Origin: a virus
Length of the DNA stretch: 35,082 nucleotides
Virus record (IMG/VR): IMGVR_UViG_3300049826_000008
Span: 1 to 35,082 of that record
Reading direction: 5' to 3' (one strand)
Under the pieces are notes generated by a model, which saw only the letters and a program-made list of their open reading frames with translations, did no database searches and was not told the DNA's origin. Numbering within the stretch: position 1 is the first letter of the stretch; every line of letters starts with the position of its first letter. A program made the position numbers and the translations under genes. Shown here one piece after another: positions 1-13,688 of this stretch.

Positions 1-237
1 AGGTGTAATGCACCAATAGCAACCTACCCCTAACCCCCTCTATACCCCTTGAGCATCACCTTGAGAATTATTGTCAAATTTATCTGGTATGCTTCTTGCT
101 TTGTAGAGAATAGTTCTAATATTGGTTGTATTGTCACACTCAGGTATTATTCATGCAATGCAAAGGAATACTTGAGTATTATCCTTGAGTATTAAATGCC
201 TACAAACCCGCATGGATACTAGGTTTTAGTTCTATAC

Positions 238-275
238 GCCTTCGGCATTTGAATACTTTTATATGTGCCGAAGGC
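238..275. repeat. Inverted repeat GCCTTCGGC / GCCGAAGGC
   Basis: GCCTTCGGC at 238-246 is the exact reverse complement of GCCGAAGGC at 267-275, giving a possible nine-pair stem with a 20-base loop. The right arm lies in a smaller dyad, GTGCC-GAA-GGCAC at 265-277. No T-run follows directly, so it is not a typical terminator. A protein-binding site or a cruciform near the origin is possible. Confidence 0.45.
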
Positions 276-288
276 ACGTTCTAATATA

Positions 289-305
289 TAAGTATTATAT
301 ACTTA
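289..305. repeat. AT-rich perfect dyad TAAGTAT-TAT-ATACTTA
   Basis: Seven-base arms, perfectly complementary around a three-base centre, lie in the AT-rich part of the leader. The arms contain the AGTATT/AATACT word that recurs through 1-1882. This may be an operator or part of a DNA-unwinding region; the sequence does not say which. Confidence 0.4.
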
Positions 306-336
306 GAATATATGCGATACATAGTATTAACTTAGG

Positions 337-371
337 TGTCAAAATTCCGACACACTGTCAAAATTCCGACA
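337..371. promoter_or_regulatory. Two tandem TGTCAAAATTCCGACA elements
   Basis: The 16-base element TGTCAAAATTCCGACA occurs exactly twice, at 337-352 and 356-371, with a 19-base period. Each has TGTC...GACA dyad ends. A degenerate inverted relative, TGTCGGTTTTACGTCA, lies at 400-415. The pair sits about 250-350 bases upstream of two sigma-54 promoter matches, a common position for enhancer-binding-protein sites. That role is inference; they could also be operators of an unrelated regulator. Confidence 0.5.
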
Positions 372-525
372 TACCACTGTAAGTATTCAGTAAGTTTTCT
401 GTCGGTTTTACGTCACTTTTATACATATTATAAGTATACATCCATGCACCAAAGAAGGGATTTTAATTTCACGATGTAAAACTATGCACCATTGTGATGC
501 ACCAATGCACTGTTATTGTGCATCC

Positions 526-534
526 TGTGGATAA
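526..534 (-). promoter_or_regulatory. DnaA box 1 (TGTGGATAA)
   Basis: TGTGGATAA is the complement of TTATCCACA, the strongest E. coli DnaA box. It lies in an imperfect repeat, with ATTGTGCAT at 515-523 just before it. The second copy of the box and repeat follows 28 bases later. Confidence 0.6.
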
Positions 535-553
535 CTCGCCATTGTGCATACAT

Positions 554-562
554 TGTGGATAA
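554..562 (-). promoter_or_regulatory. DnaA box 2 (TGTGGATAA)
   Basis: This is the second perfect TTATCCACA box in the same orientation, again preceded by ATTGTGCAT (541-549) and followed by ACT-GCC. The unit 515-540 is repeated with small changes at 541-568. Two perfect nine-base boxes within 40 bases are unlikely by chance. DnaA binding is an inference from the consensus. Confidence 0.6.
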
Positions 563-621
563 CTAGCCTAAGTGATTGATTCATAAGGCTTTTTATACCC
601 TTTGCGATACAGTCTCAAAAG

Positions 622-638
622 TTGGCACGGTATCTGCT
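622..638 (+). promoter_or_regulatory. Sigma-54 (-24/-12) promoter match P1
   Basis: TTGGCACG followed by four bases and CTGCT matches the RpoN consensus TGGCACG-N4-TTGCW at all but one position. The invariant GG (624-625) and GC (636-637) have the correct spacing. Transcription would start about 12 bases after the GC and run rightward. Activity would require host RpoN and an enhancer-binding activator. Confidence 0.55.
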
Positions 639-680
639 ACATATAAAACATGGCCCGAATCAATCGGGGCATTTTGTAGG

Positions 681-697
681 TTGGCACGGCGTTTGCT
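681..697 (+). promoter_or_regulatory. Sigma-54 (-24/-12) promoter match P2
   Basis: TGGCACGGCGTTTGCT at 682-697 is a perfect match to the RpoN consensus TGGCACG-N4-TTGCT, with GG and GC twelve bases apart. It lies 59 bases downstream of P1 in the same orientation, so the two form a tandem pair. No coding frame starts for about 590 bases downstream, so the transcript would have a long leader. Confidence 0.65.
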
Positions 698-1292
698 TAG
701 TCTCTTGCATCGGGTGAGTTTTCCATCGTGTAACTCGTTTACCCTTCTTTAACAATTCATTGTGACGAATCGGAGCGCATAGGGCTAACCTAAGCCAGTC
801 ATTCCCTAGTCACGTACAAACGAAGCCATTGATTGTATGCGGTATGCCGTACATAATCGGGGGTGTTCTCTTACGTGCCTACAATGGTAAAGGGGGTTAG
901 AACTTTAGTCTTACTGTATATGTATACAGTTAGAGCGTTGCCCGATAGAACGGGGTGCAACCGTGTAACCCTTATTAATTACAGTCATAATGAATCGTTC
1001 ATTAAACCACGTATGACAAAATTAATACTAAAGCCTACAATGTGGCCTTGGTTTAATTCCTTTGTATTCCCTATGCGACAACATGGCATACCATGCCGTA
1101 TATAGCACAAAGGTTCTAATCAACAAAGCATGATAGCGCGTTAGTATTAATTCTGGTTTACTAAAGTCCCGATGTAGTACGTCAGTATTACACCAAAGCG
1201 GATATGTAAGCCCTTTGCATTGTGACAGAGTGCAAAGTGAATACATCCGTATTCATATTCAATCGAAAACTTTTAACTTTTGGAGTAATACC
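698..1292 (+). other. Long leader without a convincing gene
   Basis: This lies between the second RpoN match and the first supported start codon at 1293. The only longer open frame (863-1105, GTG start) lacks a ribosome site and reads like chance coding, so it is not called. The SOS box lies inside. The stretch also has AGTATTA words at 1142 and 1183 and one copy of the ATGATAGC word near 1130. It may be an untranslated leader or an unrecognised small RNA. Confidence 0.4.
912..931. promoter_or_regulatory. LexA/SOS box
   Basis: CTGTATATGTATACAG at 914-929 fits CTGT-N8-ACAG with an alternating TA core, and it is a perfect dyad with eight-base arms (ACTGTATA/TATACAGT). The preceding TA also fits the wider E. 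coli consensus. Beta- and Gammaproteobacterial LexA use this motif. Its position suggests SOS control of the leader transcript or of the gene at 1293. No clear -35/-10 pair overlaps it, so the promoter it would govern is uncertain. Confidence 0.6.
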
Positions 1293-1868
1293 ATGTTTGA
1301 CAAAAACACCTTTGAACGCAATTTCAATTCTAGCCTTGAGAAAATTCAAGCATCCGAAGCCGTAACAAAACGAGAACTCTTGATTGTATCCCGTACAGTC
1401 TTAGAAGCGTGGCACGCCACGGGCAACGTGGTTTATATCAACCGCTTAGTGAAAAGTGTTACCCCAGTGAATAAGAAGGCTTTGGTATTATATGCCAAGC
1501 ATTTTGGGGGCTTTTCGTATGACGAAGTGTTGGGGGAATTCACACATAAGTCTAAAAAGCGTTATGAAACTGCCCACAAATTAGCCCTTGAATTCCTCGC
1601 TGACCCCCACAATAATTTGTGGAGCTGGGCTGAACGTCATATTGAATTGACTAAAAAGCCATTCAGTGTGGAGAACGTGGAAAAGTTCATTAAGTCAGCC
1701 ATGCACAAAGGCGCTGGCGTGGGTTTGTCTCAGGTTGATATCCTTAAGGCAGTATTCAAGGCGGGAATTGAACCCGATTGTATCATTCAGGTGATGGATG
1801 AATTGGGCATGGAATTTGCCGAAATGGATAGTACAAAAGATTTCACAATTCCCGAAGCCCCCATGTAA
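1293..1868 (+). CDS. Unknown early phage protein (191 aa)
   Basis: I do not recognise this protein. The start is ATG 1293, chosen because GGAG lies about nine bases upstream (1282-1285). The longer open frame that reaches back to 1215 has no such site. The product is soluble-looking, mixed alpha-helical and rich in Lys and Glu, with no signal peptide or membrane segment. It is the first gene after the control region and is followed by its own terminator at 1906-1939. It therefore forms a single-gene unit under the leader signals, possibly the sigma-54 pair and the SOS box. First-expressed phage genes often encode host-takeover factors, but nothing in the sequence proves that here. Confidence 0.75.
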   Translation: MFDKNTFERNFNSSLEKIQASEAVTKRELLIVSRTVLEAWHATGNVVYINRLVKSVTPVNKKALVLYAKHFGGFSYDEVLGEFTHKSKKRYETAHKLALEFLADPHNNLWSWAERHIELTKKPFSVENVEKFIKSAMHKGAGVGLSQVDILKAVFKAGIEPDCIIQVMDELGMEFAEMDSTKDFTIPEAPM

Positions 1869-1905: not shown

Positions 1906-1939
1906 AGCCACTAGGGGTTTGCTCCTCTAGTGGCTTTTT
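1906..1939 (+). terminator. Rho-independent terminator
   Basis: AGCCACTAG (1906-1914) pairs with CTAGTGGCT (1927-1935), with further G-C pairs inside. A run of five T follows (1935-1939). It lies 38 bases after the first gene and separates it from the next transcription unit. Confidence 0.85.
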
Positions 1940-2494: not shown

Positions 2495-3532
2495 ATGTTA
2501 GCAGGTCAATTCGTGCGTTGTGTAACGCGTAAATACACTCAACTGCATTTTGGTCAAGACTACCAAATCGAGCGTGTAACTCGTATTGGTTCATTGAAAT
2601 TTGTAGGATACGGGCATTTATACAATCGTAACAACTTCGTTAAGATTGTTGCGCCTATGCCTCAACCTATTAAGGTTCCTGTTGCTCCTCCTCCACCTGT
2701 TGTTAAGAAGACAATGGTTGAACAGCTAATGGCTAAGGCAGGGGAACGAGCTGGTACGTGTAGCTATGCAATTGAATTTGAGGATGGGCGTATTCGTTTA
2801 CAAGCGCATGATGCTTGCCATGCTCGTATGCGTTATGGCTCTCGTATGTCAGCAGGGGATTCAGATAAGAACAAGCCTGTTGCTGTTGCTTGTTATATCA
2901 AGGGACATAACAATGCGTTGCACGTAGAATATCGTGAAGCATATAAGGCTCATGTCAAATATATGCTTAATGATAGCCCTTGGGCAGATGCTTGGCTTAC
3001 CAAGGATGTTGACGAAGCGTTGAAGGGCTGTGCAATGATGGATGTGACCAAGCCTTTCTCATATGTTTGTAGTGCTGCTATTGCTATGCGTAGCGGTTCT
3101 GAATACTACAAGTTCCTACCTTTGTTCAAGCGTTTGTTGGATATGAAGTATTCACCACACGTTGCCTATCTCATGGCTCACATGACGCAGGTTAATACGG
3201 GTAAGCATACAGTTATCCATCAATCAGGTAGCCACCATGTATTGCATAGTGGTATGTCGTTGGATAAGGTTGTGGACTTCTTTGATAATAAGAAGATTTA
3301 CACGGTTGATAAGGCATACAACGATTCACACAATGCGTACTACCAAATCTTCAAGGTTATGGCAGAGCATGACGCTGTGAAAGAAGGTAGCTTGATTGAC
3401 ACATTGCGTAAGGCCAACCCTGAGTTTGTCAAGGAGGATAAGACTGGATGGGTTCCAATCAAAACCACTGTCGCCGAGAACTTTGACGACTATCTGAAAA
3501 TTGTTAACACATTCGCAAGGAATTTCAAATGA
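2495..3532 (+). CDS. Unknown protein, first gene of the amidoligase cassette (345 aa)
   Basis: I do not recognise the family. ATG 2495 follows AAAGGTG about eight bases upstream. The first 50 residues look like a small beta-rich domain. A Pro/Val linker follows (about 54-70, with PPPP), then a larger alpha/beta region rich in His and Tyr. No signal peptide or membrane helix is visible. The stop codon overlaps the start of the C26-type gene (ATGA at 3529-3532), so the two are translationally coupled. That linkage suggests a role in the amide-bond chemistry of the cassette or in handling its product. No catalytic motif can be named. Confidence 0.75.
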   Translation: MLAGQFVRCVTRKYTQLHFGQDYQIERVTRIGSLKFVGYGHLYNRNNFVKIVAPMPQPIKVPVAPPPPVVKKTMVEQLMAKAGERAGTCSYAIEFEDGRIRLQAHDACHARMRYGSRMSAGDSDKNKPVAVACYIKGHNNALHVEYREAYKAHVKYMLNDSPWADAWLTKDVDEALKGCAMMDVTKPFSYVCSAAIAMRSGSEYYKFLPLFKRLLDMKYSPHVAYLMAHMTQVNTGKHTVIHQSGSHHVLHSGMSLDKVVDFFDNKKIYTVDKAYNDSHNAYYQIFKVMAEHDAVKEGSLIDTLRKANPEFVKEDKTGWVPIKTTVAENFDDYLKIVNTFARNFK

Positions 3533-4173
3533 AAAAAGTATTCATCGTAAACGGTAGCGAAGGTTATTCCTCCCTCTTTCGCCGTATGGGTTATGACATT
3601 GTTAGCGACCTGACTGAAGTTACATTAGTGTGCTTCACTGGTGGTAGTGATGTGTCTCCTGAATTGTACGGTCATACCAAGCATTACAGTACATACAATG
3701 ACCCTTCTCGTGACCAATACGAGGCTGACATTTTCCAATTGTGTGTGGAACGTAGCATCCCTATGGTTGGTATCTGTCGTGGTGGTCAGTTCCTTAACGT
3801 AATGTCAGGTGGTACGATGTACCAGGATGTGTCCTACCACACTCGTGACCATTTGATTACAGACCTTGAGACAGGCGAAAGCATCTGGGTGTCATCTACC
3901 CATCACCAGATGATGAAGCCAGCTCCTAACGCCCTTCTCGTGGCTACAGGAAGCCTTAAGGGTGAGCGTACTTGGTGGGACAGCGGTGTATTCAACAAAG
4001 ATACGTCTAATGAGGACATTGAGGTGGTGTATTACGCTGATACACAGGCATTGTGCTTCCAACCACACCCTGAGTTCAATGGTCAAATCTTTAAGAATAT
4101 GCACCACTACTTTGCTGGATTGGTGGAGCGCTTCTTGGTTAAGAAGCAGCATCCTGCTGGCTGTTCATGTTAA
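3529..4173 (+). CDS. C26-type class I glutamine amidotransferase-like hydrolase
   Basis: This is a 214-residue protein with the class I glutaminase fold signature. FTGGSDVSPELYG (residues 36-48) forms the oxyanion strand, GICRGGQ carries the nucleophile Cys83, and HPE supplies His180 and Glu182, completing the triad. Length and motifs match the gamma-glutamyl hydrolase/PuuD (peptidase C26) branch, which cleaves gamma-glutamyl amides, rather than GuaA or CarA. An AAGGA ribosome site lies nine bases before ATG. In this cassette it may trim or recycle a gamma-glutamyl product made by the ligases, or supply ammonia. Which of these cannot be told from the sequence. The gene overlaps its upstream neighbour and the tiny membrane gene after it. 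Confidence 0.85.
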   Translation: MKKVFIVNGSEGYSSLFRRMGYDIVSDLTEVTLVCFTGGSDVSPELYGHTKHYSTYNDPSRDQYEADIFQLCVERSIPMVGICRGGQFLNVMSGGTMYQDVSYHTRDHLITDLETGESIWVSSTHHQMMKPAPNALLVATGSLKGERTWWDSGVFNKDTSNEDIEVVYYADTQALCFQPHPEFNGQIFKNMHHYFAGLVERFLVKKQHPAGCSC

Positions 4174-4289
4174 GTCGCATCATTGAAGGTATTATAGATG
4201 TGTGCATGGCTATTATGATGCTGTGTTGTGCATTTGTAATGATTGTGTTGGTCTACTCTTATCTTGTAAAAGAAATTGGGAGCTTGTAA
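4167..4289 (+). CDS. Tiny membrane protein (40 aa)
   Basis: This short open frame begins at ATG 4167, inside the end of the C26-type gene, and stops at TAA 4287-4289, which overlaps the next start. After a short polar N-terminus (MLSRIIEG), residues about 9-34 form one strongly hydrophobic helix rich in Met, Cys, Val and Ile, followed by a KEIGSL tail. It looks like a single-pass inner-membrane peptide. Tight coupling to both neighbours supports it as a real gene. Function is unknown; a membrane anchor for the cassette or a small lysis or exclusion peptide are possibilities. Confidence 0.6.
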   Translation: MLSRIIEGIIDVCMAIMMLCCAFVMIVLVYSYLVKEIGSL

Positions 4290-4462
4290 TGGTATTCATT
4301 CTTGGCTTGTTGTTGATGTGGTGTGAGTACATCCATCGTGTTACTGATGACGATAACCGTTTTGTAGGGTTTCCCTTGGATGGTTATTGGGTGATTGGTT
4401 TATTGGGACGCATCATGTGCTCAGTATCCCTGATTCATTTCGCTTGGTTTGTTCTGTTGTAA
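4289..4462 (+). CDS. Small two-helix membrane protein (57 aa)
   Basis: It starts at ATG 4289, overlapping the previous stop as TAATG. One hydrophobic helix spans residues about 2-13 (VFILGLLLMWC). A charged loop with a DDD run follows (about 14-30), then a second hydrophobic segment (about 33-57) rich in Trp, Ile and Leu that reaches the C-terminus. The topology is hairpin-like. It is translationally coupled to the single-pass peptide before it, and a good AAGGAG site for the next gene follows the stop. No family is recognised. The tandem pair lies within an otherwise soluble enzyme cassette. Confidence 0.6.
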   Translation: MVFILGLLLMWCEYIHRVTDDDNRFVGFPLDGYWVIGLLGRIMCSVSLIHFAWFVLL

Positions 4463-4470
4463 GGAGATAG

Positions 4471-4755
4471 ATGATGTTACAAAAGCATGATAGCACTGGC
4501 GTTACTTGGCCTTTCCCTAGTGCAAAGGCTCCAAGCCTAGCCCCTAAGCCCGTTGTATTCTTCAAAGGTAAAGCTCGCTTTATTGATTGGGCAGGTAAGA
4601 AGGATGTTCAAGTGGCTAGTGTGTATGCTCTTAATCACCCTAAGTTGGGTGAGTGTCAAGTGCGTACATCACAAGTGATGGAGATTTTTGATGATGGTTC
4701 ATTCGAGACGATGAACACAATGTATATCCCTAAGAAAGCAACTCACAATGCCTAA
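4471..4755 (+). CDS. Unknown small protein (94 aa)
   Basis: I do not recognise this protein. ATG 4471 has AAGGAGATAG directly upstream, one of the best ribosome sites in the cassette. The N-terminal third is Pro/Ala/Lys-rich and probably flexible. The rest looks like a small beta-rich domain (KARFIDWAGKKDVQVASVYAL). There is no signal peptide or membrane segment. It overlaps the next gene by eight bases. A function within the cassette is possible but unproven. Confidence 0.65.
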   Translation: MMLQKHDSTGVTWPFPSAKAPSLAPKPVVFFKGKARFIDWAGKKDVQVASVYALNHPKLGECQVRTSQVMEIFDDGSFETMNTMYIPKKATHNA

Positions 4756-4960
4756 AAAGAAAACCTCATTTAAATACATGGTGTCTGTTGATGGTACTCA
4801 GGCACCTAAGTTTGAACACGACACATTGTTGGAAGCAACAAAAGAAGCTGAACGTCTAGCTGAGGTGTTTGGTAATACTGAGCGTACTATTCGTGTGCTA
4901 CGAGTAGAAGCAGTCCTTAAAGTTAAACGTGAAATTGTTACCACCAAAACTTGGGTTTAA
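4748..4960 (+). CDS. Unknown small basic protein (70 aa)
   Basis: I do not recognise this protein. The start overlaps the previous gene by eight bases. The product is Lys-rich, begins MPKKKTSFKYMVSVDG and reads as one beta-alpha-beta unit with an amphipathic helix (about 27-41). This would fit a small compact domain with no catalytic motif. It ends six bases before the tRNA gene. Confidence 0.6.
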   Translation: MPKKKTSFKYMVSVDGTQAPKFEHDTLLEATKEAERLAEVFGNTERTIRVLRVEAVLKVKREIVTTKTWV

Positions 4961-4966
4961 TATAAC

Positions 4967-5043
4967 ACGACAGTAGCTCAACTGGATAGAGCAACAACCT
5001 TCTAAGTTGTCGGTTATGGGTTCGATTCCCGTCTGTCGTACCA
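4967..5043 (+). tRNA. tRNA-Arg(UCU) with encoded CCA
   Basis: The cloverleaf can be folded by eye. The acceptor arms ACGACAG/CTGTCGT pair at all seven positions. The D stem is GCTC/GAGC, the anticodon stem ACAAC/GTTGT with loop CTTCTAA (anticodon TCT), and the T stem ATGGG/CCCGT with loop TTCGATT. The A discriminator is followed by an encoded CCA. It would read AGA (and AGG by wobble). AGA is scarce in the amidoligase genes around it but common in the polymerase, exonuclease and reductase genes, so it probably supports those. Confidence 0.97.
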
Positions 5044-5060
5044 TTCATTCAATCGAGATT

Positions 5061-5756
5061 ATGAACATCATTGTCATTTCCCCAAAAGCATCAGATGAAA
5101 GTGCTAAGCGTCTAGCTAAGGAGCTAGGTGCTGTGTATGAAAATCCATATCAAGCTAAGCATAACAATTATGGAGGGTTTGATGTAATCATTAACTATGG
5201 TTATTCTCAACCGTTCAAGATGAATCGTAATGTCTTCTTAATTAATAGTTTTGAAACAGTACGGGCTTGTATTGATAAACGTGCTACACTTCATCACCTT
5301 GCGATTGCTGGTGTACCTGTGCCAGAATTTGCTACTAAAATCAAAGATGAATGGCACACTGTAATTTGCCATACTAAACCTGATGGACGCAAGAACGAAG
5401 GTATTGAACACTGGTATCGCAATGAACAAATGGCTATTCCTCCTGCTTATCTCTACACCAACTACTATCCTCATCGTGGTGAGTATCGTGTTGTTGTCTT
5501 GAAAGGTAAGATTGTTGGTCGTTACCGCAAGGTGCTGGACGCTGAAGGTATGTGGAGTTTAGAGTTGCGTGATAAGCGTGGCTTTGAAGAGATGGATGCA
5601 GCTTGCGTAAAGGCAGCTCGTGCATTACGTGTTGATTACGTTGGCTTCGATGTGCTTGCACAGAAGAAAGATAACTTCGTAATCATCGAGGCCAACTCTG
5701 GCCCTATCCTGACAGATGAATCTGTTGAAGCTTTTAAAGAACTGATTGGAGTGTAA
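5061..5756 (+). CDS. ATP-grasp ligase 1 (231 aa)
   Basis: This is an ATP-grasp fold amide-forming ligase of the RimK-like type. A Gly/basic loop (CHTKPDGRKNEG, about 103-114) would hold phosphates. EYRVVVLKGKIVGRYRKV (141-158) is the typical central strand pair. VGFDVLA (Asp197) and IIEANSGP (Glu210, Asn212) bind magnesium. Such enzymes activate a carboxylate as an acyl-phosphate and join it to an amine. The frame extends back into the tRNA, so the first reasonable start, ATG 5061, is used; its ribosome site is weak. It abuts the class II amidotransferase gene by one base. Substrates are unknown. Confidence 0.85.
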   Translation: MNIIVISPKASDESAKRLAKELGAVYENPYQAKHNNYGGFDVIINYGYSQPFKMNRNVFLINSFETVRACIDKRATLHHLAIAGVPVPEFATKIKDEWHTVICHTKPDGRKNEGIEHWYRNEQMAIPPAYLYTNYYPHRGEYRVVVLKGKIVGRYRKVLDAEGMWSLELRDKRGFEEMDAACVKAARALRVDYVGFDVLAQKKDNFVIIEANSGPILTDESVEAFKELIGV

Positions 5757-5757
5757 T

Positions 5758-7140
5758 ATGTGTGGACTCGTAGGCATGGCTGGTAATCTTACCAGCAAAG
5801 AAGAAAAGGCTTTCCATCAACTGCTGATTATGGATTCAGTTCGTGGTGTGGATAGTACAGGTGTAGCTGTTGTCCCTCGTATTGGTGAGGTTAAGATCGC
5901 CAAAGAACTAGGTGACACATATCGTTTGATGGACAAGAAATCGTATGACAAATTATTCCACGGAACTAATCGTTGCATCATTGGACATAACCGTTGGGCT
6001 ACTGTTGGTGGTGTTTCTCGTGACACTGCACATCCTTTTGACTTCACTACTCTTGTGGGCGCTCACAATGGTACGCTCCAATCCAAGTATCGTCTTGATG
6101 ACCACACACATTTCAAGACAGATAGTGAAGCTCTGTACAACCATATTGATTCTAAGGGTTTGAAGAGTGCTCTCGAACATCTGAATGGTGCATGGGCATT
6201 GACATGGTGGGACAAAGAGAAGGAAACGATTAACTTCTTGCGTAACAAAGAGCGTCCACTCTACGTTACGTTCAATGAGGCACAGAGTGTAGTGTTCTGG
6301 GCTTCAGAATCGTGGATGCTCAAGGCTGCCCTTGGTCGCAATGACATTAAGCATCCTGAACCTGTGTTGATTGGTGAAGACAATCACTACTCTATTGCTG
6401 TTAGCTCTGCTGCTGTAATGGAGAAGACTAAGATTGTGCAAGCCCCTTCACGCTATGTTGCTCCTCCTGTGGTGGTCTACCAAGGCTACCAAAATAATCG
6501 TATGGCTAACGGTTATTGGCAAGAGGAAGCAGACAAGGCTAAGCCTGCCGCTACGGTTACTCAAATCGGCAGTGTTCAATCAAAAAAGGAGGGGGTGGCT
6601 CCCACAACAGCCTCCTCAAGCTTACGGACAGGCTACTCGGGAAAAAAGGGCGCATCGCTCGAGCTTCTTGAGTTGGCATCTGACCGTAAGGGTGGCTGTT
6701 ATTACATATGCTTCGATGCACAAAGCCCTTCGTCTAAGGTACGCTTCTACTACAACAAACGTGAGACAGCTCCTCACAAGAATGTTGGTAAGAGTATTAC
6801 CGCAGACATTGGTGACTTGATCATTGATGCGTATGAAGGAGGTTACTACAAGGTTATTGCATCGTCTGTTGAGTACGAGAGTGAAGCTCCCGTCATTGAT
6901 GCAGATGAAGACTTTGACCCAGTAGTTGATCGTCAGTACGTTACTCATACCAATGCAATGATTAGTTTCAACGATTGGATGAATGAGTACGGTGAGTGTG
7001 TGTGGTGTGGTTCGTCCGTACAACCTACTCAACAACACGCATTGACAACAGAGGGTCAGTGCTTGTGTGCAAATTGTCTTGATGATTCAGAAATCAATGG
7101 TTTTGTCAAAATTGCTAAGCAAGTAGCTGCTTCAGCATAA
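5758..7140 (+). CDS. Class II (Ntn) glutamine amidotransferase with C-terminal zinc ribbon
   Basis: The start is set at ATG 5758 because Cys2 must become the N-terminal nucleophile. Ntn amidotransferase motifs follow: RGVDSTG (29-35), GHNRWAT (76-82), AHNGT (102-106) and TDSEAL (121-126). The first 240 or so residues resemble the glutaminase domain of PurF, GlmS or AsnB, but no PRPP, sugar or ATP-PP domain follows. The rest is a linker, an unknown domain (about 300-390) and a zinc ribbon (Cys414, Cys417, Cys437, Cys440). Ammonia would have to be passed to a separate partner, most plausibly a neighbouring ligase. Residues about 275-297 appear locally frame-shifted between two A6 tracts. Confidence 0.88.
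   Translation: MCGLVGMAGNLTSKEEKAFHQLLIMDSVRGVDSTGVAVVPRIGEVKIAKELGDTYRLMDKKSYDKLFHGTNRCIIGHNRWATVGGVSRDTAHPFDFTTLVGAHNGTLQSKYRLDDHTHFKTDSEALYNHIDSKGLKSALEHLNGAWALTWWDKEKETINFLRNKERPLYVTFNEAQSVVFWASESWMLKAALGRNDIKHPEPVLIGEDNHYSIAVSSAAVMEKTKIVQAPSRYVAPPVVVYQGYQNNRMANGYWQEEADKAKPAATVTQIGSVQSKKEGVAPTTASSSLRTGYSGKKGASLELLELASDRKGGCYYICFDAQSPSSKVRFYYNKRETAPHKNVGKSITADIGDLIIDAYEGGYYKVIASSVEYESEAPVIDADEDFDPVVDRQYVTHTNAMISFNDWMNEYGECVWCGSSVQPTQQHALTTEGQCLCANCLDDSEINGFVKIAKQVAASA
6582..6647 (+). other. Probable compensated double frameshift inside the amidotransferase
   Basis: Between A6 at 6582-6587 (followed by GGAGGGGG) and A6 at 6642-6647, the annotated frame uses codons rare in this gene (GGG, CCC, CGG, AGC). 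The +1 frame there reads LPQQPPQAYGQATR with ordinary codons (CCT, GCT, ACT, CAA). One base lost at the first tract and one gained at the second would restore it. This may be an assembly error in homopolymers, a real pair of mutations, or recoding. Confidence 0.5.
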
Positions 7141-7166
7141 TCTTTTTATTTCAACGAGGTGTTAAC

Positions 7167-7958
7167 ATGGAAATTTTAGTTGGTTGCGACCCAGAAGTGT
7201 TTGTGAAACAAGGTGGTGTGTTCAAGTCTGCGTTCGGCTTGATTCAGGGGGATAAAGCTAACCCTCAGAAGGTCAATCGTGGCGCTGTACAAGTGGACGG
7301 TATGGCATTGGAGTTCAACATTGACCCTGCCCATAGTGAAGATGAGTTCTGCCTTAATGTGCAGGATGTATTCAATACGATGAAGCTGATGGTTCCAGAC
7401 TATGAGGTTGTTGCTGTACCTGTGGCTCACTTTGACCCAGACTACATTAAGAACCAGCCAGCTGCTGCTCTTGAATTGGGCTGTGATCCAGACTTCAATG
7501 CTTGGATTAATGCCGTTAACAACAAGCCTAATGGCAATCGTCCTATGCGTACTGCATCTGGTCACGTTCATATCGGATGGACTAAGGGCGCTGATACGTC
7601 TGACTTCAATCACATCGAGATGTGTAACGCTGTGATTCGTCAGATGGACTTCTTCCTTGGCTTGCCTAGTCTTTCCTATGATGATGACCAAGAACGCCGT
7701 GAGATGTATGGTAAGGCAGGTTGCTGTCGCTATAAGCCTTATGGTACGGAGTATCGTACCTTATCTAATGCTTGGCTCAAGAGTGAAGCACTGATGCGTT
7801 GGGTCTATCGTAATACTTTGGCAGGTATGAACGAACTCATCAAGGGTAATGTCTTGGCTGACAAGTATGGCGACATTCAAGAATTGATTAACACAGGGAA
7901 TAAAAAGGAAGCTATGAAGATTATCAAGAACGAGAAGATCGAGGTGTGTTATGCCTGA
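7167..7958 (+). CDS. phiEco32-like COOH-NH2 ligase (GS-fold amidoligase)
   Basis: At 263 residues, this matches the glutamine-synthetase-fold family named after phage phiEco32. Visible motifs are GCDPEVF (Asp8, Glu10), VQVDGMALEF (Asp44, Glu49), SGHVHIGW (His133, His135) and CCRYKPYGTEYRTLSNAWL (Tyr192, Glu195, Arg197). In glutamine-synthetase folds, such acidic and His residues bind metals and ATP, and the Arg binds acyl-phosphate. The expected reaction is ATP-driven joining of a carboxylate to an amine. A GAGGTG site precedes ATG 7167. The last eight bases overlap the next gene. In phages this family is known beside ATP-grasp and amidotransferase genes, as here. The substrate is unknown. 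Confidence 0.9.
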   Translation: MEILVGCDPEVFVKQGGVFKSAFGLIQGDKANPQKVNRGAVQVDGMALEFNIDPAHSEDEFCLNVQDVFNTMKLMVPDYEVVAVPVAHFDPDYIKNQPAAALELGCDPDFNAWINAVNNKPNGNRPMRTASGHVHIGWTKGADTSDFNHIEMCNAVIRQMDFFLGLPSLSYDDDQERREMYGKAGCCRYKPYGTEYRTLSNAWLKSEALMRWVYRNTLAGMNELIKGNVLADKYGDIQELINTGNKKEAMKIIKNEKIEVCYA

Positions 7959-8577
7959 ACTTAATCATGCAGACGTACATCAACTGTATTCAGATACGGT
8001 GTGTCGTTATAAGGGTGCCCCTGTACGTGTTGTAGAGATCAATCGTGACCTTATGGTTTCTATTATTCTTCTGCGTCATGGTAAGATGGCTCAGGTTAAG
8101 TTTGAGCAAGCCCTGTTTGGCCCTCCATTGGGACGTATTGGCTTTGTGAATGAAGGTGTTCATGCTTTCTATGTCACTCGTCAGCCTGTTCGTCGTTACC
8201 AAGTAGGCCTTAATCGTGGTAATGTTAAGTTCCATTGCCTTCCTATGGCTGATCGTAAGAAAGCTGAACGTGATTATAACATCGCATTCAAGATGAATAC
8301 GAAGGCATGGGCCAAGTCATTGGACAATGAATATCCTAGCCTTGCTGAGGCTATACGCATTGCTACGGAGCATAACGGCACTGTTGCTTTCGATAAGCAA
8401 TTCGCTGTTGATGGTGAACGTAACATCTACCACAAGACTAACAAGGTGGGTACTATCCCTCCACGTATGTCTACCGTCAAACGTGTTGTATTCAATCCTG
8501 GATACGAACATCTCGATACTCTCTTGATTTATAACTATGACAAAACTACACGAACTATTGCAGCAAAAGCCAACTAA
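7951..8577 (+). CDS. Unknown protein between the two amidoligases (208 aa)
   Basis: I do not recognise the family. It overlaps both neighbours (8 bases upstream, 41 bases downstream), so it is firmly embedded in the cassette. The N-terminal 80 or so residues look like a beta-rich barrel (YKGAPVRVVEINRDLMVSIIL). The middle is basic (MADRKKAERDYN, about 102-113). There is no signal peptide or membrane segment. It may be a scaffold, a peptide-recognition subunit or the acceptor of the modification, but this rests on position alone. Confidence 0.75.
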   Translation: MPELNHADVHQLYSDTVCRYKGAPVRVVEINRDLMVSIILLRHGKMAQVKFEQALFGPPLGRIGFVNEGVHAFYVTRQPVRRYQVGLNRGNVKFHCLPMADRKKAERDYNIAFKMNTKAWAKSLDNEYPSLAEAIRIATEHNGTVAFDKQFAVDGERNIYHKTNKVGTIPPRMSTVKRVVFNPGYEHLDTLLIYNYDKTTRTIAAKAN

Positions 8578-9751
8578 TGGACTATTCGGTATTGAGATTG
8601 AAACTGAGGGTCGTAACCTTACAATGGTTGCCCCACCTCAGTGGAAGATTGAAGACGATGGTTCCCTACGTGGGCAATTCCCTACTGAACGTGCCGAGTA
8701 TGTTCTGAAGAAGCCTCTTGACTTGCCTAAAGCTATTGACGCAGTTGTTAAGTTGCGTGAGCTTCAGGATGCTAACAAGGCTGTACTTAACTTCTCGTTT
8801 CGTACTAGCGTTCACGTTCACGTCAACGTTCAGCAACTGACATTCCCTCAGTATCTGAATATGATTTATACATACCTGTTGCTTGAGGAACCATTGGTTC
8901 GTTATTGCGGCAAGGAACGTGTAGGTAATCGCTTCTGTCTGCGTTTACAAGATGCAGAGGGTTTGCTTGATTACTTGTTCATGTTGTTCCGTCAAGGATA
9001 TGGTGCACTGCGTCATATTCATGGTGACAATGTACGTTATGCAGCTATTAACGTAGCAGCTACAGGTAAGTACGGTAGTCTTGAGTTCCGTTCACTCAAG
9101 GGTAATATGGATGTGCCCTACATCACAACATGGTTGCAGGCTCTCGATCACTTGCGTTCATTCGCAATGGAAATGAAAGACCCGCAAGATGTACACAACT
9201 TGTTTGTGAACAATACTCCTGAGCAATTTGCTGAGATTGTATTGGGTGATGTATACGAATCATTCGTGTATCCTGAGATGGAAAATGATATGCGTAGTAG
9301 CTTCTCTCTAGCATTGGAGCTTCCATACAACTACGTTGACCAGACAGTTAACGATGCTAAGATTCTGGCTGATCTCCTAGCTAAGAAGGAACGTCAGAAG
9401 GCTGAAGTACAGGCAATGATTGATCACGAGGCATTGATGGCACGCCAACGTGCTGAGCGTGAACTAGCTCGTCGAGCTGAGAGAGATGCTCTTGTACCTC
9501 CTCCAGTGCGTAATGATGTACTTCGCCCAGACAATATCTTTGAAGCACCTCCTGTTCGTCGTCGTCCAGCCCTCAATCCAATCGACTGGAATGCTGCTAT
9601 GGAAGCTCGTTTACAAGCGGGACAAGCTATGGCTGAACGTGCAGGAGTGCGTAGAGGTGCTCGTGGTAATGTGAACATGATTATCGTAGACGATATCTTG
9701 AATGAAGAAGGCCCTGTGTTGGCAGCTCCACAACGTGAAGGACACTGGTAA
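8537..9751 (+). CDS. Second GS-fold amidoligase (Amidoligase_2-like) with charged tail
   Basis: This is a 404-residue protein. FGIEIETEG (17-25) is the hallmark first strand of the amidoligase_2 family. It is followed by WKIEDDGSLRG (36-46), SVHVHVNV (91-98), RVGNRF (128-133) and YGSLEFRSLKG (179-189), which supply the acidic, His and Arg active-site residues. It would make amide bonds using ATP. Residues about 275-350 form a Lys/Arg/Glu-rich helix, possibly a coiled coil, and a Pro-rich segment before a more ordered C-terminus. Family members usually lack such an arm, so it may bind a partner or nucleic acid. The start overlaps the previous gene, and the stop overlaps the next start as TAATG. 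Confidence 0.88.
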   Translation: MTKLHELLQQKPTNGLFGIEIETEGRNLTMVAPPQWKIEDDGSLRGQFPTERAEYVLKKPLDLPKAIDAVVKLRELQDANKAVLNFSFRTSVHVHVNVQQLTFPQYLNMIYTYLLLEEPLVRYCGKERVGNRFCLRLQDAEGLLDYLFMLFRQGYGALRHIHGDNVRYAAINVAATGKYGSLEFRSLKGNMDVPYITTWLQALDHLRSFAMEMKDPQDVHNLFVNNTPEQFAEIVLGDVYESFVYPEMENDMRSSFSLALELPYNYVDQTVNDAKILADLLAKKERQKAEVQAMIDHEALMARQRAERELARRAERDALVPPPVRNDVLRPDNIFEAPPVRRRPALNPIDWNAAMEARLQAGQAMAERAGVRRGARGNVNMIIVDDILNEEGPVLAAPQREGHW

Positions 9752-10491
9752 TGAATATCTATCCATATAAAATGGCTAGTGAGTCAGCGAAAGCATTGGC
9801 TCAAGCGTTAGGTGTTAAGCGACTCAAGCATGAAGGAAGGATGATAGCACTCCCGTTCATCAACTGGGGCGCATCAAAGATTAAACGTGAGATTAAACCT
9901 CTCACTGGTATCTACAACCATCCTAATGCTGTGGCTATTGCTGGCAATAAGCTCAAGACATTCTTGTGTCTTGATCAAATTGTTAACATTCCCGACTACA
10001 CAACTGATATTGCAGAGGCTAAAGAGTGGCTTAATGCAGGTATTACGATTGTTGAACGTCATACTCTCACTGGTCACAGTGGTCAGGGTGTGCGTATTGT
10101 GTCCTTTGATGAGGAGCTTGACCCTAAAGCTAAGCTCTATGTCAAGTACATCAAGAAAGAGCAAGAGTATCGACTTCATGTATTTGATTTCGATGTGTTC
10201 TTTATCCAACGTAAGGCTCGTGCACTAGATGTGCCTAATGACCAAGTGAATTGGCAAGTACGTAATCATGCAAATGGTTTCATCTATGCCAATCAAGATA
10301 TTGAGTTACCTGATGAAGCTAAGCAAATGGCTACTGAAGCAATTCGTACTCTTGGTTTAGACTTTGGTGCTGTTGATTTGATTTACAATGCACGTCAGAA
10401 CAAGTTCTATGTGCTTGAAGTTAACACTGCGCCAGGTTTATTTGGTACTACTCTTGAAAAATATGTCGAGAAGTTTAGTGAATTGGAGTAA
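9751..10491 (+). CDS. ATP-grasp ligase 2 (246 aa)
   Basis: This is the second ATP-grasp ligase of the cassette. The Gly-rich loop HTLTGHSGQGVRI (104-116), the strand EYRLHVF (139-145) and LDFGAVDLIYN (Asp209) lead to the metal-binding FYVLEVNTAPG (Glu223, Asn225), a classic RimK/D-Ala-D-Ala-ligase ending. It starts one codon-overlap after the second amidoligase (TAATG), so the two are co-translated. ATP-grasp 1 differs enough that a recent duplication is unlikely. The two may act on different substrates or on successive steps. The reaction is predicted from fold only. Confidence 0.87.
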   Translation: MNIYPYKMASESAKALAQALGVKRLKHEGRMIALPFINWGASKIKREIKPLTGIYNHPNAVAIAGNKLKTFLCLDQIVNIPDYTTDIAEAKEWLNAGITIVERHTLTGHSGQGVRIVSFDEELDPKAKLYVKYIKKEQEYRLHVFDFDVFFIQRKARALDVPNDQVNWQVRNHANGFIYANQDIELPDEAKQMATEAIRTLGLDFGAVDLIYNARQNKFYVLEVNTAPGLFGTTLEKYVEKFSELE

Positions 10492-11561: not shown

Positions 11562-13212
11562 GTGTGTAGAAAAACTTCCACACCGAACTGATAAGTGTAA
11601 CAGTGCCAACGGATTACAAGTATTCTTAAAAGAAGACGGGTCATACGATGGTTTCTGTTTCGCTTGTGGTACTCATGTACCTGACCCCTACCATGATAAA
11701 CCGAAGGACTATAAGCCACAATCTATCGTCAAGTCTAAGGAACAGATTGAAGCTGAAATCAAGGAAGTAGCAGACTACCAAACTGTTACTCTACCTGACC
11801 GTAAGCTTAAGAAAGAATCCTTAGAATACTTCGGAATCAAGATTGGTGTGTCAGAACAGGATGGAACGACCCCTGTAACGCATTATTATCCTTACTATGA
11901 GGGTGATGCACTGATTGGTTATAAAGTTCGTCTAATCGAGAATAAACGTATGTGGGCCATTGGTTCCACTAAAAACGCAGACTTCTTTGGTTGGCAACAA
12001 GCTATTCAAACAGGGGGTAAGAAACTCTTCGTAACTGAGGGTGAGTGTGATGCAGTAGCTCTGTATCAAATCTTCAAAGACCATAATAAGGGTACTCAAT
12101 ATGCTGATTACAATCCTGCTGTCGTGTCTCTCAGTAATGGCTCTGGCGGTGCTTCTAAGCAATTCGCCAAGATGCTTCCTGAAATAAGAAAAGTCTTTAA
12201 AGAGATTATTCTTGTATTCGATAATGATGCCGCAGGTAAGAAAGCAGTAGATGACGTACTACGTATTGCCCCTGATGCGATGGTTGCCAGTCTTCCATCC
12301 AAAGATGCCAATCAGTGCCTTATGGATGGGCGTTCTAAAGCTGCATATAATGCGTGCCAGTTCAACGCCCAAAAGCCGAAGAACACTCGCTTGGTGTCTG
12401 GGAACGATCTTCATGAAGCAGGTAAAGAACCGCCAACATTCGGGGTATCGTGGCCTTGGGAACACATTACTAAGGCAACAAGGGGGATTCGCCTCGGAGA
12501 GACTATCTATATTGGCGCAGGCCAGAAACAGGGTAAGTCGGAGGTCGTTAACACCCTTGCAGCTCATTTTATCAAGGAACACGGATGGAAAGTATTTCTT
12601 GTCAAGCCTGAAGAGAGCAACAAGAAAACCTACAAGCTTGTCGCAGGAAAGCTGGTAGGTAAGTTCTTTCACGATCCTACTAAACCCTTCGACGATGTAG
12701 CGTATGACAAAGCAGGTGAGGTGTTGCAAGACCAACTGTATATGCTTAACTTGTATCAGCACGTAGGCTTTGACACTCTCAAAGCTGACATTCGTGCTGC
12801 TGCTAGTGAAGGATGCAAGGTCATCATCATCGACCCTATTACTAACTTAACTAATGGAATGGATGCAGCTAGTGCAAACGTTAAACTTCAAGAAATTGCT
12901 CAAGAGCTTTCTGCTATGGCCCTTGACCTTAATGTGGTTATCTTCATTTTTTGCCATTTGCGTAATCCTGATTCTGGCCCACCTCACGAAAGAGGTGGTG
13001 AGGTCTTGTCTAGTCAGTTTGCTGGTTCCCGCGCGATGGCTCGCTCTTGCAACCTCATGCTCGGACTCGAAGGAAATCGAGACCCAAATCTTGGACCTGA
13101 AGAGCGTAATTTACGAACTCTAGTATTGTTAGAGGACAGGGAGTTTGGTGAGACAGGCCGATACAAACTCTACTGGGATCAATCCACAGGCCTATTTAAC
13201 GAGATCAATTAA
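11554..13212 (+). CDS. T7 gp4-like primase-helicase (552 aa)
   Basis: The protein unwinds DNA at the fork and makes primers. An N-terminal zinc-binding element (Cys4, His9, Cys14, FCFACG at about 35-40) is followed by a TOPRIM primase core: FVTEGECDAVA with the catalytic Glu and LVFDNDAAG with DxD. The RecA-like helicase has Walker A GAGQKQGKS (321-329) and Walker B VIIIDPITNL. Length is close to T7 gp4 (566). ATG 11554 follows a perfect AAGGAGG site. The gene is followed without a gap by the sigma-like gene (TAATG at 13210-13214). It is the first replication enzyme of the block. Confidence 0.95.
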   Translation: MSKCVEKLPHRTDKCNSANGLQVFLKEDGSYDGFCFACGTHVPDPYHDKPKDYKPQSIVKSKEQIEAEIKEVADYQTVTLPDRKLKKESLEYFGIKIGVSEQDGTTPVTHYYPYYEGDALIGYKVRLIENKRMWAIGSTKNADFFGWQQAIQTGGKKLFVTEGECDAVALYQIFKDHNKGTQYADYNPAVVSLSNGSGGASKQFAKMLPEIRKVFKEIILVFDNDAAGKKAVDDVLRIAPDAMVASLPSKDANQCLMDGRSKAAYNACQFNAQKPKNTRLVSGNDLHEAGKEPPTFGVSWPWEHITKATRGIRLGETIYIGAGQKQGKSEVVNTLAAHFIKEHGWKVFLVKPEESNKKTYKLVAGKLVGKFFHDPTKPFDDVAYDKAGEVLQDQLYMLNLYQHVGFDTLKADIRAAASEGCKVIIIDPITNLTNGMDAASANVKLQEIAQELSAMALDLNVVIFIFCHLRNPDSGPPHERGGEVLSSQFAGSRAMARSCNLMLGLEGNRDPNLGPEERNLRTLVLLEDREFGETGRYKLYWDQSTGLFNEIN

Positions 13213-13688
13213 TGCAAGTAGAAGCTATTGAGAAACACTATATCGCTAATCGTCAAAAGCTTCATAAGCGTATGTCATTCCGAGCTGGCTCTCCCGAAGC
13301 TGGTGAGGATGTAGTACAGACTGCTTATGAGCGAGCTATTCGTTATCGTCGCAGCTGTGACCCACAACGGTTTGACCAGTGGTTCTCAATGCTTCTTAAT
13401 AACGCATTGCGTGACTATAAGCGTGAAGAGATGGGACATTCCTCGTGGGAAGCAGAGGATGAGGAAGCAACAGATACTAACTGTCCTCATTACTCAGAGC
13501 GTATCCTCAAGGAAATCCTTGACCTAGTGGAGACTAAGAGTGTTGACCAAGTAGAAGTGCTTACACTCCATTTTAAGAATGGGTATAACGCAATTGATAT
13601 TTGTCACATCACTGATTACTCATACGCTAAGACGCATCAAATCATCCAACGATTCCGTAACGAGTTAAAGGATTTGTACAGTGAGTAA
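13212..13688 (+). CDS. Sigma-70/ECF-like transcription factor (158 aa)
   Basis: The protein has the size and pattern of an ECF sigma factor. SPEAGEDVVQTAYERAIRYR (about 28-47) corresponds to the region 2 helix that binds the beta' clamp, and FDQWFSMLLNNALRDYKRE (about 55-73) to the -10-reading helix. The C-terminal part (VEVLTLHFKNGYNAIDICHITDYSYAKTHQ) resembles the region 4 helix-turn-helix. phiEco32 also encodes an ECF-type sigma factor that directs host RNA polymerase to its later genes. With no phage RNA polymerase in this window, the same role is likely here. The regions are divergent, so the assignment is by pattern. It overlaps both neighbours. Confidence 0.7.
   Translation: MQVEAIEKHYIANRQKLHKRMSFRAGSPEAGEDVVQTAYERAIRYRRSCDPQRFDQWFSMLLNNALRDYKREEMGHSSWEAEDEEATDTNCPHYSERILKEILDLVETKSVDQVEVLTLHFKNGYNAIDICHITDYSYAKTHQIIQRFRNELKDLYSE

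Follow-up and report, generated by a model that had tools for sequence, protein, structure and literature searches.

The window, by which we mean the whole stretch of DNA analyzed (35,082 nucleotides), is a linear 35-kb fragment of the virus record IMGVR_UViG_3300049826_000008. Its early genes follow the order glutamine amidotransferase, aminotransferase, COOH-NH2 ligase, amidoligase, S6 glutaminyl transferase, primase/helicase, sigma factor, PolA and, later, RNR, while tail genes and a PhoH-like gene occupy the opposite strand. Because this early order is that of the Zobellviridae phages PA11 and CVT22, save for an extra phosphoesterase gene between the sigma factor and PolA, the virus appears, on gene content, to be a Zobellviridae-like podophage, an uncultured virus of bacteria. 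Direct DNA similarity searches of the control region against cultured phages returned nothing, and a search for the host among genome contigs returned just one MAG contig. Zobellviridae are described as having no RNA polymerase and as having their transcription "regulated differently", with nothing more said (PMC9960094). No phage RNA polymerase was found among the larger ORFs scanned in the window, although the contig is partial.

The early module opens with gene 1, for which only the N-terminal part of the predicted fold is confident. No solved structure matched it (best E 0.18), its only matches being other uncharacterized phage proteins. Relatives were also sought for the gene at 2495, and none were returned. 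Near the primase lies a gene for a sigma-70 region 2 protein (13212–13688, PHROG_1740), kept in relatives such as PA11 and CVT22, which probably serves later genes. The glutamine amidotransferase, aminotransferase, amidoligase and S6-type glutaminyl transferase genes form a nitrogen-centered cluster (3529–10491) that is also found in relatives without NtrC sites, and a tie between it and the promoter, which looks nitrogen-controlled, is no more than a possibility. The features of the control region and its surroundings are collected in Table 1.

Table 1. Predicted control elements, leader RNA features and gene 1, in window coordinates.
Feature	Position	Strand	Description
TGTC-N8-GACA palindrome, two tandem copies	337–371 (337–352, 356–371)		19-bp period; binder unknown
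NtrC-type enhancer site 1 (predicted)	485–501		TGCACCATTGTGATGCA; 1 mismatch to TGCAC-N7-GTGCA
NtrC-type enhancer site 2 (predicted)	506–522		TGCACTGTTATTGTGCA; perfect; 21 bp from site 1
DnaA box, first	526–534	-	TTATCCACA
DnaA box, second	554–562	-	TTATCCACA; 28 bp from first
IHF consensus site	569–581	-	AATCAATCACTTA; between enhancer and promoters
Sigma-54 promoter P1 (predicted)	623–638	+	-24/-12, TGGCACGGTATCTGCT; 1 mismatch, in the -12 part; predicted start 649
Sigma-54 promoter P2 (predicted)	682–697	+	-24/-12, TGGCACGGCGTTTGCT; 0 mismatches; predicted start 708
Untranslated leader RNA, 585 nt	708–1292	+	MFE z = -4.1; 0/100 shuffles as stable; covarying helices
boxA 1	744–754	+	CTTCTTTAACA; 10/11 to GYTCTTTAANA
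Long-range helix, 5' strand	756–766	+	pairs with 984–994
Long-range helix, 3' strand	984–994	+	pairs with 756–766; closes the domain between both boxA sites
boxA 2	997–1007	+	GTTCATTAAAC; 9/11 to GYTCTTTAANA
Conserved RNA hairpin	1213–1237	+	invariant 7-nt loop GUGACAG (1222–1228)
Gene 1	1293–1868	+	191 aa; conserved first gene of the Zobellviridae-type early module; function unknown
Intrinsic-terminator-like hairpin, strong	1906–1935	+	after gene 1

In the noncoding stretch ahead of gene 1, we located two -24/-12 elements on the same strand, 59 bp apart and with exact GG/GC spacing. The original prediction had reported two RpoN-type elements in the same direction, one perfect and one with a single mismatch, and its coordinates and spacing were confirmed; the transcript starts that it expected, at 650 and 709, are close to ours but off by one base when GG is placed at -25/-24. 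Both elements satisfied the test TGGCAY-N5-TTGCW with GG and GC exactly spaced, for which spacing decoys came out near zero. A lone element would be little proof, because single matches occur at chance level (four with at most two mismatches in 35 kb, versus 4.9 expected). Among 20,000 dinucleotide shuffles of window positions 1–1292, 51 contained any perfect element, and none contained two plus-strand elements with at most one mismatch within 80 bp. The tandem pair is not due to chance.

Relatives of gene 1 led us to the homologous region in four contigs. Both elements are kept 59–60 bp apart in L002 (92% identity) and L004 (65%), and 57 bp apart in L012. Together with L342 and with L361 and L373, which were added by the final scan, tandem elements were observed at a similar distance from gene 1 in seven leaders, including that of the window. 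Across 95 related loci (1.62 Mb), some of which are overlapping copies of one contig, we counted 13 tandem pairs versus none with a -24 to -12 spacing one base longer; upstream of gene 1 in 32 loci, there were 20 elements on the coding strand, three on the reverse strand and three decoy matches in all. The elements of PSA11, O4 and GP100 are weak or single and were excluded from the counts, and no -24/-12 elements were found at this region in several relatives, including CW02, CVT22, Pecta and Asterion. Conservation of both elements in sister phages had been proposed as the check on the original prediction, and it was passed in L002, L004, L012 and other relatives, which, with the excess of the pair over chance, supports sigma-54 promoters in a phage control region. 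The same conservation bears on the possibility that the sites are relics or neutral and that an undetected sigma-70 promoter, farther upstream or off the contig, reads the early genes. The fragment begins only ~620 bp upstream of P1, leaving room for such a promoter; however, the sequence and spacing of the elements are retained while flanking bases diverge, and relatives in other branches keep them as well, making this explanation very improbable.

Two phages near the window clade on the gene 1 tree, L003 and L005, have no -24/-12 elements at the equivalent place. Instead, two or three sigma-70-type promoters precede boxA 1 (9186–9400 in L003 and 9209–9410 in L005, e.g., TTCACA-16-TATAAT in L005), and no good sigma-70-type promoter was found at the equivalent place in the window. 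It thus looks as if one leader is served by different promoter and enhancer modules across relatives; the promoter-class labels on the tree are too few for a firm count of switches. We also considered whether the phage's own sigma factor, conserved in PA11 and CVT22, might read a TGGCAC-N6-TGC repeat whose likeness to -24/-12 elements is coincidental. Sigma-70-family factors, however, recognize -35/-10 elements, and the early genes need to be read before any phage factor exists. Moreover, CW02 and CVT22 lack such elements in the stretch examined, yet CVT22 has the sigma gene, and the NtrC and IHF sites described below would be left unexplained. We give this possibility next to no credence.

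Upstream of the sigma-54 promoters lie two NtrC-type sites, which we compared with the 17-bp NtrC consensus of E. coli, TGCACCAnnnTGGTGCA (PMC8743547). The outer 5+5 bases match at 9/10 positions in site 1 and 10/10 in site 2, the inner CA/TG is only partly matched, and the paired arrangement is the usual one for NtrC. No other NtrC-type site with at most one mismatch occurs in the 35-kb window, and such a pair did not arise in any of 20,000 shuffles. The pair sits ~130–215 bp upstream of the predicted start sites, meeting the enhancer criterion of roughly 80–250 bp for an AAA+ activator, and the 21-bp spacing was observed in the three closest leaders, being retained in L002 and L004 despite differing bases between the sites. 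The intervening IHF site matches its consensus exactly in both the window and L004 and with one mismatch in L002, although alone it is weak evidence, as ~11% of shuffles contain one. With paired NtrC-type sites and an IHF consensus lying between them and the promoters, nitrogen is the most likely signal, which gives substance to the earlier suggestion of an activator-dependent link to host physiology. No phage-encoded sigma-54 activator domain was found in the window (G000) or in the related phage records searched, and the hits in MAG G006 belong to other contigs of that assembly. On these records a phage-encoded activator was rejected, and a host protein should fill this role.

Even within this group NtrC control is not universal, because L012, L342, L361 and L373 have no NtrC sites, though their tandem elements are present. 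In L342, L361, L373 and L358, a TGACA-N4-TGTCA-type palindrome is repeated about three times ~80–260 bp upstream of the -24/-12 elements and is a candidate target for a different sigma-54 activator, and L012 carries TTTCAYCATTTGATKAAA repeats upstream of its elements. These differing palindromes lend some support to the idea that the sigma-54 promoters are real while their activator is not NtrC, the window palindromes binding another protein, for example in replication control, next to the DnaA boxes. In the same direction, the two DnaA boxes and the tandem TGTC-N8-GACA repeats look origin-like. The box pair has the same spacing in L004, with one exact and one altered copy in L002, related copies of the TGTC-N8-GACA palindrome occur in both contigs, and the promoter region may overlap a replication origin. 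Nevertheless, the 17-bp sites fit the NtrC consensus of E. coli, are paired at enhancer distance and are of a kind seen together with -24/-12 elements in numerous further viral contigs. We consider an activator other than NtrC unlikely, without dismissing it, and retain NtrC as the preferred reading.

The recurrence of this arrangement was evident in a scan of 2.9 million viral contigs, in which an NtrC site, 97–125 bp and a -24/-12 element were found in succession in 43 stretches; with one extra base between -24 and -12, there were none. The element was not covered by any ORF of at least 80 aa in 31 of the 43, and the NtrC-type sites often include the full TGGTGCA arm. Independent origins are fewer than 43, because many of these stretches fall in one large protein-sharing contig cluster. 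In one of them, L234, the promoter heads the replication side, which holds methyltransferase, primase/helicase and DNA polymerase genes, and the opposite side holds portal and terminase genes. Tandem elements regardless of NtrC were found in at least 120 stretches versus 85 with altered spacing, counts that alone are ambiguous; among the matches listed, 97 of 120 were intergenic versus 5 of 85 altered-spacing controls, which are mostly coding repeats with a spacing that is a multiple of 3.

As a separate observation, intergenic stretches of many viral contigs contain -24/-12 elements that face each other and overlap within a single palindrome (TGGCAC..TTGCA..TGCAA..GTGCCA), commonly as multi-copy arrays (L101, L111, L116, L125, L141, L150, L194 and L253 255–346). 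They might be convergent promoters, or they might serve to soak up sigma-54 polymerase as a sponge.

Sigma-54 polymerase forms stable closed complexes without an activator, and true sigma-54 sites could thus act mainly as a sponge or roadblock, their arrays titrating host polymerase or silencing the leader. The long arrays and face-to-face copies in some viral contigs are compatible with such a role, as are the four forward and two reverse copies of phage VpV262. The window, however, has no more than two copies, both on the same strand and at the position that sigma-70-type promoters take in sister phages, shortly ahead of boxA 1 and with NtrC and IHF sites upstream, whereas a sponge has no need of enhancers or of a constant distance to the leader. 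A sponge or roadblock is, in our judgment, a poor explanation of this region and very unlikely to be its main function; we continue with sigma-54 promoters that drive the leader.

The predicted transcripts begin with a long, stable untranslated leader. Its two boxA sites are near matches to the rrn boxA consensus, GYTCTTTAANA (PMC5725501), with better matches in relatives. The long-range helix that follows boxA 1 and precedes boxA 2 showed compensatory changes in nine aligned leaders, over the domain between the first two boxA sites. More widely, Zobellviridae leaders (L252, L347, L248 and others) have boxA-like sites every ~240 nt, two or three in each, whatever the promoter class. The GUGACAG hairpin was found in the window and 10 relatives (11 phages), with an 8-bp stem that contains compensatory pairs and in which 97.7% of cells are paired, a level reached in 0/500 shuffles. 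It is present in L361, L373 and L358 too, has no match in Rfam at the gathering threshold, and is possibly a protein-binding signal of the leader. Antitermination, which we infer, would be useful to this operon because a strong terminator-like hairpin follows gene 1.

Taken together, we are highly confident, as far as sequence evidence allows, that ~480–1290 is a control region at which NtrC, IHF and sigma-54 start the early (replication) module, as in the bacterial response to nitrogen starvation. The sequence elements, their spacing and conservation, and the covariation of the leader helices were observed directly; the binding of these three proteins is inferred, in the absence of RNA or protein data. 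Host RNA polymerase with sigma-54 would bind both -24/-12 elements, and phosphorylated host NtrC would bind the paired sites at 485–522, with the intervening DNA bent by IHF. ATP hydrolysis by NtrC would then open the promoters, as at the bacterial glnA promoter, giving transcripts from ~649 and ~708 that start with the structured two-boxA leader, whose boxA sites could bring in NusB/NusE and so allow rrn-type antitermination along the lengthy early operon. The "early" expression of the original prediction agrees with a location at the start of the replication module; timing during infection is nonetheless an inference, with no timing data behind it. The main biological difficulty lies in the inferred nitrogen dependence, since a dependence on nitrogen limitation is a hazardous license for a lytic phage. 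It would be tolerable if nitrogen limitation is the usual condition of the hosts, or if the virus has a further promoter beyond the ends of this fragment.

A wider reading is that in many uncultured podophages, Zobellviridae-like and others, host sigma-54 starts the replication module through exchangeable enhancers, yielding nutrient-licensed lysis, after which an rrn-like multi-boxA leader acts across the early operon. One lineage would use NtrC, others would use different palindrome arrays, and sisters would have sigma-70 promoters. We regard the chances of this generalization as about even.

The usual view is that lytic phages rely on strong housekeeping promoters. If our reading is true, the beginning of infection would instead follow how well nourished the host cell is, because the promoter requires a nitrogen regulator in its activated state, and nutrient limitation would influence the outcome of infection. 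This is relevant to the ecology of phages in nutrient-poor waters and to the possible failure of some phages to grow in rich laboratory media. How Zobellviridae initiate transcription with no RNA polymerase of their own has not been settled (PMC9960094), and the arrangement described here offers a specific answer for part of the group.

Use of host sigma-54 by a tailed phage for its own transcription is already known from Pseudomonas phage YuA, for which a strict dependence on this factor is reported (PMC5053324). With this precedent and the abundance of such elements in viral contigs, the earlier view that a phage leader built around RpoN is unusual must be tempered; what we judge to be new is the proposed NtrC-licensed early promoter region with tandem elements. 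We found no report of NtrC-controlled phage promoters and only indirect mentions of sigma-54 phage promoters, in a literature covered only in part, so that an earlier report is not excluded. YuA (NC_010116) belongs to the Mesyanzhinovviridae, and the three -24/-12 promoters annotated in its record are found within the structural module, show no tandem arrangement and fit the consensus poorly; its genome has no NtrC-type site with at most one mismatch. The window therefore differs in family and promoter place and does not meet a YuA-type criterion.

Closer to the window, PA11 and CVT22 share its early gene order, and many Zobellviridae share a boxA leader before gene 1, whereas CW02 and the enterobacterial Zobellviridae have no -24/-12 elements in this region. 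The Vibrio parahaemolyticus phage VpV262 has four forward -24/-12-like elements, at 173, 214, 255 and 310, just inside its 138-bp terminal repeat, but, unlike the window, no NtrC site in its control region. The leader resembles those of rrn operons in its boxA-like sequences and in having a boxA site on either side of a domain that a long-range helix closes, much like a miniature rrn operon; in contrast to rrn, the enclosed domain is not rRNA, the units repeat every ~240 nt, up to three times, and antitermination is only inferred. The upstream arrangement resembles that of E. coli glnA (glnAp2), which we used as a yardstick (reversed L344): two 17-bp NtrC sites, at 246 and 278, precede a -24/-12 element at 368, with one mismatch each, and the sites of the window score similarly under the same pattern. 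The window differs from glnA in having two tandem -24/-12 elements rather than one, NtrC sites 21 rather than 32 bp apart, and an IHF consensus and DnaA boxes in between, and it drives a phage leader.
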